Source: an uncultured Eubacteriales bacterium
Lineage (GTDB): Bacteria > Bacillota > Clostridia > Christensenellales > Aristaeellaceae
Reading direction: 5' to 3'
NCBI GenBank assembly: GCA_902765305.1
Contig: CACWZI010000017.1
Location: 1 to 35,845, forward strand
Length of the DNA stretch: 35,845 bases
The notes under the pieces were generated by a model. That model was given only the letters and a program-made list of their open reading frames with translations. It made no database searches and had not been told where the DNA came from. Below are positions 1-35,845 of this stretch, one piece after another (position 1 is the first letter of the stretch; each line of letters begins with the position of its first letter). The position numbers and the translations under genes are program-made.

Positions 1-113
1 GTTTCTCGGTCCTTTGAATAAAAGAAATCCGTCAGGATTTCTACCTTCCCTAACACCTAAAACCTATAACCTAAAACCTAACTACTGATTTGTCGCTGCG
101 CGACAAATCAGTA
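1..113 (-). repeat. Half copy of hairpin/CCTAA repeat element, cut by window edge
   Basis: Read left to right it shows a small hairpin (GAAATCC, loop GTCA, GGATTTC, 24-41), a C/A-rich tract of CCTAA-type units (about 48-82) and a perfect 14-bp palindromic hairpin TACTGATTTGTCGC / GCGACAAATCAGTA (83-96 and 100-113, loop TGC). The same order of parts makes up the right half of the complete element at 13610-13911. Positions 19-96 are the exact reverse complement of 35768-35845. No ORF of its own is present. Confidence 0.85.
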
Positions 114-144
114 TTTCCCCGATTGAACGGTTGCAATAAAACAA

Positions 145-13495: not shown

Positions 13496-13639
13496 ACCAT
13501 CAACACGACTACAAAGGTGATGAAGGGAAAGAAAGTCCTGTTCACTTATGCCAAGCCCAAGACCTTCAAGTTCACAAAGGCCAGCGTCACCCTGAAGCGT
13601 GGCACTGCCAATACTGATTTATCGAGCTGTGCTCGATAA
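13496..13639 (+). pseudogene. Fragment of a coding gene truncated by the repeat element
   Basis: An open frame without a credible start codon reads TINTTTKVMKGKKVLFTYAK, then a Lys/Phe/Thr-rich segment ending TLKRGTAN, and then enters the left palindrome of the element, stopping at a TAA inside it (13637-13639). The alternating Lys/Thr/Val pattern resembles strands of Ig-like surface domains, but no family is recognisable. Both the missing start and the element-supplied end indicate a remnant rather than a functional gene. Confidence 0.45.
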
Positions 13640-13911
13640 ATCAGTATTCAGGGATTAGGTTTTAGGTTTTAGGTTTTAGGTTTTAGGTTTTAGGTTTTAG
13701 GTTTTAGGTTTTAGGTTTTAGGGGTTAGGGGTTAGGGGTGGTGCAAATCCCTTCGGGATTTGTTTTAATTCAATGGAAACGGCAGGAGTTTCAACGTTTT
13801 TCAGCCTTTTAATCAAAAGAAATCCGCAGGATTTCCTCCTTCCCTAACCCCTAAAACCTAACCCCTAACCCCTCAAATACTGATTTGTCGCAGCGCGACA
13901 AATCAGTATTT
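13610..13911. repeat. Complete hairpin/TTTTAGG repeat element (two inverted halves)
   Basis: The left half has an 18-bp perfect palindrome (13610-13627 with 13631-13648, loop TGT), then TTAGG, nine perfect TTTTAGG heptamers (13660-13722), two TTAGGGG units, and an inner hairpin CAAATCCC/GGGATTTG (13744-13762). A ~55-bp spacer follows. The right half is inverted: inner hairpin GAAATCC/GGATTTC (13819-13835), degenerate CCTAA-type tract (about 13843-13870) and a 17-bp perfect palindrome (13875-13891 with 13895-13911). There is no ORF. Half copies occur at both window ends. It behaves like a MITE- or BIME-like intergenic element. Confidence 0.9.
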
Positions 13912-13986: not shown

Positions 13987-14061
13987 TGGAGGTGCCACCC
14001 GGATTCGGACCGGGGAATGAAGGTTTTGCAGACCTTTGCCTTACCACTTGGCTATGGCACC
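13987..14061 (-). tRNA. tRNA-Cys (GCA)
   Basis: The acceptor stem GGTGCCA/TGGCACC is followed by discriminator U and encoded CCA. The anticodon loop is CTGCAAA (anticodon GCA). The T arm contains GGTCCGAATCC. It is last of five tRNAs and runs into the terminator. Confidence 0.96.
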
Positions 14062-14096
14062 AAATTTCGGCGCACGCGCTGCGTTCGCCGTAATAA

Positions 14097-14172
14097 TGGA
14101 GCGGTAGACGAGACTCGGACTCGCGACCTCCACCTTGGCAAGGTGGCGCTCTACCAACTGAGCTACTACCGC
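14097..14172 (-). tRNA. tRNA-Gly (GCC)
   Basis: The acceptor stem GCGGTAG/CTACCGC is followed by discriminator U and encoded CCA. The anticodon loop is TTGCCAA, anticodon GCC. The D arm AGCTCAGTTGGTAGAGC is typical. Confidence 0.96.
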
Positions 14173-14175
14173 AAA

Positions 14176-14251
14176 TGGTGCCCAGGGACGGAATCGAACC
14201 ATCGACACGTAGATTTTCAGTCTACTGCTCTACCGACTGAGCTACCTGGGC
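14176..14251 (-). tRNA. tRNA-Phe (GAA)
   Basis: The acceptor stem GCCCAGG/CCTGGGC is followed by A and encoded CCA. The anticodon loop is CTGAAAA, anticodon GAA. The T loop is GGTTCGATTCC. Only 3 nt separate it from the next tRNA. Confidence 0.96.
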
Positions 14252-14254
14252 AGA

Positions 14255-14331
14255 TGGCGACGCGGAAGGGGCTCGAACCCTCGACCTCCAGCGTGACAGG
14301 CTGGCATTCTAACCAACTGAACTACCGCGCC
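14255..14331 (-). tRNA. tRNA-Asp (GTC)
   Basis: The acceptor stem GGCGCGG/CCGCGTC (one G-U) is followed by G and encoded CCA. The anticodon loop is CTGTCAC, anticodon GTC. Confidence 0.96.
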
Positions 14332-14334
14332 ACA

Positions 14335-14410
14335 TGGTGGGAACAACAGGGCTCGAACCTGTGACCCTTTGCTTGTAAGGCAAATGCTCTCCCAGCTGAG
14401 CTATGCTCCC
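14335..14410 (-). tRNA. tRNA-Val (TAC)
   Basis: The acceptor stem GGGAGCA/TGTTCCC (one G-U) is followed by A and encoded CCA. The anticodon loop is CTTACAA, anticodon TAC. It is first in the operon, 38 nt after the promoter -10. Confidence 0.96.
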
Positions 14411-35481: not shown

Positions 35482-35793
35482 GTGATCAATACCATTGTGG
35501 AGCGCCTGGAGGCGGTGCTGGCGGAGCTGGACGCGCTGTCGGCAGAATGCGGTGCGCCGGAGGCGCTGGAGGATTTGGACGCGGAGCTTGAGGACGCGCT
35601 GATGCTGCTGTCGGACATCGATCCCCGGGAGGATGGCTGGGAGGAGGAGCTTTCGGACGGCCTGGAGGAGATAAGGGCGTTTGCCGGGGATTATCGCAAG
35701 ACCGGCATCCCCGGCGCGAAGGCGCTGGCCGACAGGTTGGAGCAAGCAACTACTGATTTGTCGCACTGCGACAAATCAGTAGTTAGGTTTTAG
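35482..35793 (+). CDS. Small acidic helical protein, 3' end formed by repeat element
   Basis: The 103-residue protein is Glu/Leu/Asp/Ala-rich and likely coiled-coil-helical (IVERLEAVLAELDALSAE). GTG start with GGAGGGAGG 9 nt upstream. The final ~14 residues (TTDLSHCDKSVVRF) come from the palindrome of the repeat element, so the native C-terminus has been replaced or extended. No family recognised. Confidence 0.55.
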   Translation: MINTIVERLEAVLAELDALSAECGAPEALEDLDAELEDALMLLSDIDPREDGWEEELSDGLEEIRAFAGDYRKTGIPGAKALADRLEQATTDLSHCDKSVVRF

Positions 35794-35845
35794 GTTATAG
35801 GTTTTAGGTGTTAGGGAAGGTAGAAATCCTGACGGATTTCTTTTA
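35749..35845 (+). repeat. Half copy of hairpin/TTTTAGG repeat element, cut by window edge
   Basis: A 16-bp perfect palindrome (35749-35764 with 35768-35783, loop ACT), a TTAGG-type tract and a small hairpin GAAATCC/GGATTTC (35823-35840), in the order of the left half of the complete element. 35768-35845 is the exact reverse complement of 19-96. Confidence 0.87.

Follow-up and report, generated by a model that had tools for sequence, protein, structure and literature searches.

A short intergenic repeat with an inverted hairpin core and matched heptamer arms in a clostridial genus

The question raised by this locus is what kind of DNA carries nine perfect TTTTAGG heptamers between palindromic ends. 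The window, meaning the whole 35,845-bp stretch that was analyzed, is an entire contig (C17) of a 3.88-Mb genome assembled in 177 contigs. We found that positions 13610..13911 hold one full, 302-bp copy of a dispersed intergenic repeat family, confirming the original prediction of a palindromic-ended element with nine TTTTAGG units and two inverted halves. On the plus strand its parts are ordered palindrome B, heptamer arm, hairpin B, spacer, hairpin A, heptamer arm and palindrome A (Table 1). The G/T-rich arm on the B side is 95 bp long, with the nine TTTTAGG units at 13660-13722, the C/A-rich arm on the A side is 39 bp long, and the spacer measures 56 bp. Viewed from outside, the G-rich strand runs inward in both arms. 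All six frames are interrupted by stops, in agreement with the predicted lack of an ORF. When the window was searched for perfect hairpins whose arms measure 15 bp or more and whose loops span 3-5 nt, only the two outer palindromes and one hairpin at 35764 were recovered, while the same search recovered none in 5 mononucleotide shuffles of the window. The half copies predicted at both ends of the window are likewise present, palindrome A of the left one bearing one arm mismatch; their placement may reflect a short-read assembly that broke at repeats. Just past the element, at 13990-14410, five tRNA genes are clustered on the minus strand.

Table 1. Parts of the full repeat copy and of the two half copies in the window.
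Feature	Position	Strand	Basis
Outer palindrome type B, 18-bp arms, 3-nt loop, perfect	13610..13648	.	Palindrome pattern matches in own genome
G/T-rich heptamer arm by hairpin B, nine TTTTAGG plus GGGGTTA-type units	13649..13743	+	Arm periodicity of seven bases across 85 related elements
Inner hairpin B, stem CAAATCCC/GGGATTTG	13744..13762	+	RNAalifold and pair count, loop class
Variable central spacer	13763..13818	.	Alignment A1
Inner hairpin A, stem GAAATCC/GGATTTC, plus-strand loop GCA	13819..13835	+	RNAalifold and pair count, loop class
C/A-rich heptamer arm by hairpin A, mostly complementary to units of 13649-13743	13836..13874	+	
Outer palindrome type A, 17-bp arms, 3-nt loop, perfect	13875..13911	.	
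Half copy at left contig end: hairpin A, C-rich arm, palindrome A (about 24-116)	1..116	.	
Half copy at right contig end: palindrome A, G-rich arm, hairpin A (35748-35840)	35748..35845	.	

The family is abundant in its own genome and in a few related ones. A BLAST search of the own genome with the window copy returned 146 matches, with several falling on each copy, and the cores of the best pair of copies were 95% identical. A strict pattern for the outer palindromes (types A and B) matched 273 times in the own genome, 249 times in G023, 128 times in G006 and 24 times in G012, as compared with 0-3 times in the remaining 24 of the 28 genus genomes; the reversed pattern, used as a control, found no match in any of the 28. 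BLAST matches were present in 26 of the 28 genomes, the own genome included. Across the taxonomic family, a covariance model matched 19 of 200 genomes and 6 of 50 genera at E <= 1e-4. When eight of its loci, most from other genera, were inspected by eye, several retained the layout with other stems (e.g., AAATGCC/GGCATTT and AAATCGC/GCGATTT), and the heptamer arms were again paired. An exact-pattern scan of GTDB contigs recovered at least 101 stretches, and the 80 matches listed are MAGs whose titles read Clostridiales, Clostridia or Oscillospiraceae and, for several, name rumen, ileum or duodenum as the source. Viral contigs held no match to two exact patterns, and neither PLSDB plasmids nor INPHARED phages gave a match, on which grounds carriage by phages or plasmids was rejected. 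Loci L035 (G003 contig C90) and L026 (G000 contig C103) are alike in both flanks and element in supposedly different species. Because these flanks are shared and the sole strict palindrome match of G003 lies on C90, this contig may be misbinned.

With respect to location, none of the 29 merged copies found across 396 kb of own sequence fell inside predicted genes, the same simple ORF prediction calling 89-91% of the sequence coding. The 24 copies with genes on both sides lay between 15 co-directional, 6 convergent and 3 divergent pairs, as compared with 95 co-directional, 33 convergent and 41 divergent among 169 background intergenic gaps, a contrast given as plain counts.

Occupancy of orthologous sites differs between relatives. 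The window copy is missing in G023, G006 and G011, all three of which are collinear on both sides of the site (3 of 3), and G017, which is rearranged at this site, likewise lacks it. Since three collinear relatives are without the copy, the element moves or is lost. Four copies on contig C4 were also compared with fetched relatives. Sites of the first were empty in G012 and G018, and those of the second were empty in G012, G018 and G011, with a different element in G006. For the third, the site was empty in G018, held a solo palindrome in G006, and held elements with other heptamers in G023 (core inverted) and G011; no fetched relative retained both flanks of the fourth. These comparisons indicate that occupancy varies between species, and that some sites were refilled or kept an element whose heptamer changed. 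As the relatives are roughly 80-90% identical, the empty sites are not base-exact and gain is indistinguishable from loss at any single site. No target duplication was shared at the palindrome borders of 46 complete copies. High copy number, empty syntenic sites and pairing kept despite change (see below) bear out the view that the element belongs to a mobile or structurally selected family and is not a product of chance.

Most sampled copies in the own genome are capped by a palindromic repeat that is abundant in three related genomes as well, and solo palindromes occur. One clear arm was found beside 136 of 166 palindromes. The outer palindromes had been described as varying between copies while preserving pairing, with ATCGAGC/GCTCGAT versus TGTCGC/GCGACA as the example. 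Compensated variation does exist inside each palindrome type (AATACTG / AATTCTG / AACTACTG), but the two sequences of that example represent separate types, B and A. In the TTAGG and AGTG arm-motif classes, 24 of the 27 copies with both caps have palindrome A next to hairpin A and B next to hairpin B, whereas 5 of 6 capped copies of the GAAT class have palindrome A on the other side of the core. The capping was thus rearranged at least once, via core inversion or separate assembly. At G000:C1:86862 and G000:C50:22812 (L081 and L088), a palindrome and heptamer arm flank a different palindromic repeat, CCTTCCCCTTCAGGGGAAGGTGG, rather than the usual core.

The hairpin core was examined in elements that had been extracted by both stems, one substitution being tolerated per stem, so that constancy of the stems is partly built in: 106 elements were extracted, 91 passed filters for hairpins and Ns, and 85 had unique cores. 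Some loci had been fetched by a pattern that fixes the stem and loop of hairpin B, and a recount used the 49 elements outside those. Both stems were exact in 24 of 32 palindrome-bounded intervals outside the pattern-fetched loci; the other 8 had one exact stem and a second within 3 substitutions. Read outward, hairpin A loops were of the form G..A, with free middle bases, in 74 of 78 readable cases, and in 45 of 46 in the recount. For hairpin B the recount gave G..A in 37 of 42 readable loops, the rest of the 49 elements being nested or unreadable; the full count, 73 of 78, is inflated by the loop-specific fetching pattern. Loops of the d(cGNAg) and d(cGNNAg) kind are very stable in DNA. Over the entire element, one strand reached the lower fold energy in 41 of the 85 cases, neither strand thus being preferred, and such equal folding of both strands fits DNA over a directional RNA. 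Taken alone and with RNA parameters, hairpin A was more stable on the outward strand in 54 of 77 elements (1 opposite) and hairpin B in 14 of 78 (1 opposite), the margins being small. In L025, L006 and L029, for example, a nested hairpin (TTAACGCTTCGCTAGGCCTTCGGCCA or CCCTGAAGGGCTAGCTTCGCGTC) is inserted in or beside a hairpin.

Across the 85 elements the arms are periodic at seven bases, with an identity of 0.63 versus 0.24-0.32 at periods 3-6 and 8-12. The heptamers observed included AGGTTTT, AGGGGTT, AGTGGCT, AATGAGG, AATTAGG, AATGGGG, AGAGTGC, AGTGTGG and AATTGAG; the unit that had been called telomere-like is one heptamer allele among many. The original prediction had further proposed that unusual DNA structures might arise from the strand-asymmetric G-tracts. 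That such structures are what the element is for was not supported, since many heptamers of relatives lack GGG, the quadruplex motif of four G3 tracts occurs in 6 of 85 elements (the window copy is without it), and no strand folds preferentially. A telomere or G-quadruplex reading was accordingly discarded, other heptamers being common in relatives and G4 motifs rare, and what stands of the earlier interpretation is the repeat family. In alignment A1, which comprises 51 of 67 non-redundant elements (16 were removed by hand, and the window copy replaces a near twin), one adenine per heptamer unit of the left arm is almost invariant. The C content of the inward strand of the arms is 6-7%.

The two arms of an element match each other, as measured in tests of complementarity and of left and right consensus that used all 85 unique elements. 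Own-arm complementarity was 0.718, as compared with 0.563 for mixed pairs, and 0 of 5000 permutations reached the observed value. The same held within the own genome (0 of 5000 permutations, n=25) and within G023 (2 of 5000, n=11). Left and right heptamer consensus differed by at most one mismatch in 67 of 85 elements, while about 14 were expected by shuffling. A tree of cores was built from 77 of the 85 elements (core length 70-97), in 69 of which both arms were assignable to a heptamer class (8 of 77 were not), and the class was identical in both arms in all 69. The class switches 18-19 times on this tree, a soft count given that the tree has few resolved forks and that the classes were defined after the heptamers had been seen.

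The arm pairs covary. RNAalifold and a pair count found 14 doubly changed arm pairs and 247 doubly changed cells, versus 106 in shuffled arms. The covariation score of the arms was 0.384, as compared with 0.130 when shuffled, and was at most 0.125 when the arms were slid one to three columns; two of five covariation measures, pair types and double-change pairs, hardly differed from the shuffles (174 of 500 and 20 of 500, respectively). In the main heptamer class of the own genome, the match between the two arms of an element was not significantly closer than that between arms taken from separate elements (the observed value was reached in 327 of 4000 permutations), so ongoing homogenization is not shown in this class. 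The corresponding figure was 59 of 4000 for all TTAGG elements and 0 of 4000 for each of the other two classes. The two arm lengths of an element were uncorrelated (r = 0.09).

Which machinery might spread such a repeat? If the family were a REPIN or BIME proper, two inverted REP units would be mobilized as single-stranded DNA by a genome-encoded Y1 (RAYT) transposase. The inverted hairpin pair around a spacer, the intergenic location, the solo palindromes and the lack of target duplication agree with this, and Y1 transposase matches were found in 16 of 28 genomes, including all four palindrome-rich ones. However, the other 12 genomes gave no Y1 match, among them the element carrier G025 (95% complete), and none of 31 Y1 loci scanned (of 45 matches) had the palindromes or paired core hairpins of the family, L261, whose far edge holds a heptamer array, and L273, which has a single imperfect hairpin match, being the weak signs in favor. 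Moreover, in a count of GTAG alone among the two possible foot tags (GTAG or CGTC), this tag stood at the hairpin foot on 14 of the 85 A sides and on none of the 85 B sides. A RAYT partner is thus not supported by the scanned Y1 loci, and we regard this reading as improbable. An IS66-type MITE, whose true unit would end in GTAACTGTTCAGTC inverted repeats and be mobilized by an IS66 transposase, the ends of most copies having decayed beyond recognition, finds support in a part of the data. Eight small elements have the IS66-type end GTAACTGTTCAGTC and perfect 8-bp duplications; some of these elements lie within cores of the family. Two different capped copies are enclosed by such ends, one (L059/L065) without a duplication and one (L244) with 7 of 8 duplicated bases. 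Resemblance to GTAACTGTTCAGTC at p<=0.05 was found at 16 of 92 element ends, versus 2-3 for two scrambled controls, and at both ends of 4 of 46 complete copies (2 of 46 at p<=0.01). One GTAACTGTTCAGTC end was also carried by 3 of 13 IS66 loci, one of the three under the family cut-off. The enclosed copies and the 16 similar ends suggest that IS66 movement may carry some copies. Against this as a general account, 76 of the 92 ends of complete copies showed no resemblance at p<=0.05, and decay of the ends alone is unlikely when cores are near identical (95% in the best pair) while ends lack GTAACTGTTCAGTC. Furthermore, three inserts in cores (L156, L137 and L133:19246) are without palindrome or core, indicating that IS66-like ends and the family are separable. 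IS66 is therefore supported as a partner for a minority of copies only, and an IS66-type MITE as the family's identity is unlikely.

The repeat could also be a structurally selected RNA or a bidirectional terminator at gene ends, with selection preserving both copies and pairing. In favor of this are T runs after the hairpins in many copies, the absence from genes, the few divergent gene pairs (again as plain counts) and the strong covariation. On the other hand, G-U pairs show no strand bias (383 of 5368 versus 393 of 5407) and folding is likewise unbiased, no Rfam 15 family is matched at the gathering score, and orthologous gene ends in relatives lack the element. At that score Rfam 15 identified the five tRNAs only in the window, the element giving sub-threshold matches. 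A directional RNA was rejected on the unbiased fold energy and G-U pairs, and we judge selection at gene ends to be quite unlikely overall. Neither Y1/RAYT nor IS66 accounts for the family. When the genes adjacent to the 25 largest clusters were compared by eye, no common transposase was recognized, and none of 193 hairpin-A sites, judged from spacing and sequence, held an ORF-bearing, autonomous copy.

Other mobile elements were observed at the scanned loci. In L031, L032, L259, L264, L268, L273 and L277, seven Y1 loci, the Y1 gene lies between copies of a different repeat, ACGGTTCTC..GAGAACCGT, apparently a second mobile repeat family. One further locus, L033:1003-2230 (G000 contig C53), has a 147-aa Y1/RAYT-like gene within a GTAG-tagged palindrome array (GTAGCGGCGACTATCAGTCGCC), which is a classic REP system unrelated to the fold-back family. 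The eight elements with GTAACTGTTCAGTC-like ends (L203:6196-6549, L156:7713-7956, L133:19246-19500, L133:3569-3861, L233:3498-3651, L137:3781-3893, L077:8130-8219 and L063:1230-1419) are IS66-like and carry assorted other repeats as cargo; three share the duplication GAAATCCG inside a hairpin.

The family combines a repeated anatomy and many copies with variable site occupancy, arms of the same class, recurrent stems with G..A loops and no visible border duplication. We conclude that it is probably a short, gene-free, non-autonomous family of fold-back DNA, residing in intergenic DNA of one ruminant-gut clostridial genus and of looser relatives in the same taxonomic family, whose arms are matched by slippage and template switching. 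The element would act as single-stranded or cruciform DNA. Its stem-loops, AAATCC(C)-GNA/GNNA-(G)GGATTT when read outward, are putative recognition signals for a trans-acting enzyme. The arms may lengthen by replication slippage, and template switching in the folded state may copy one arm onto the other; such arm-to-arm copying is proposed as the reason that heptamers vary between species yet match inside an element. At times, copies are carried or interrupted by IS66-type elements. Precedents for slippage and template switching exist in the literature: template switching is reported to homogenize the arms of inverted repeats and to invert their spacers (PMC8604942), and heptamer slippage has been proposed in print (PMC4692102, PMC4679880). 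An adenine kept at seven-base intervals and the scarcity of C on the inward strand suggest another origin of the arms, in which an enzyme (either a polymerase that adds repeats or a modular DNA-binding protein stepping seven bases at a time) would write the heptamer of both arms, lineages rewriting it while the core stays; we consider this very improbable.

Abundant intergenic heptamer arrays are also known from cyanobacteria. IS66-family MITEs have terminal inverted repeats that start with GTAA and 8-bp target duplications. In the genomes studied here, GTAA-ended repeats with 8-bp duplications enclose some family copies, but the ends of most complete copies have no detectable terminal repeat, and membership among IS66 MITEs fails for most copies. 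Among open-licence PMC papers, none was recognizable as describing this fold-back repeat family. The closest published analogues found, as far as the accessible portions of these papers go, are the inverted heptamers of Xanthomonas for the arms and REPINs for the build (PMC4692102; PMC3116915, PMC3733652). In Xanthomonas, arrays of GGGAATC heptamers face each other in 70 and 75 cases, copy number varies, and few lie between divergent genes (Rehm et al. 2015, PMC4692102, in the text available). Both systems thus consist of intergenic, G-rich, seven-base tandem repeats with convergent arrays forming an inverted repeat. In contrast to our family, that paper focuses on one heptamer type and a G-quadruplex reading, and its accessible text reports no hairpin core, no matched two-arm change between species and no capping palindromes. 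The Beggiatoaceae TAACTGA repeats likewise form abundant intergenic heptamer arrays; unlike the family, they are direct repeats, and the available part of the source describes neither paired arms nor a hairpin core (PMC4679880). REPIN, BIME and REP sequences, as presented in the accessible text of PMC3116915 and PMC3733652, share with the family a spacer flanked by inverted hairpins, a high copy number, intergenic location, non-autonomy and solo units. The family differs in its rare GTAG, the lack of a RAYT beside scanned loci, its long outer heptamer arms and its two outer palindromes, and membership in the RAYT system fails on two features, the GTAG tag at the hairpin foot and a Y1/RAYT gene flanked by the repeat.

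Taken together, the 85 unique inverted repeats form a natural series in which the arms were replaced repeatedly, complementarity was kept, and the hairpin core serves as an internal control. This series allows one to ask whether paired change in inverted repeats reflects structural selection or template switching in replication, two causes whose confusion also affects covariation tests for RNA. The family likewise connects heptamer arrays with REPIN-like mobile DNA.
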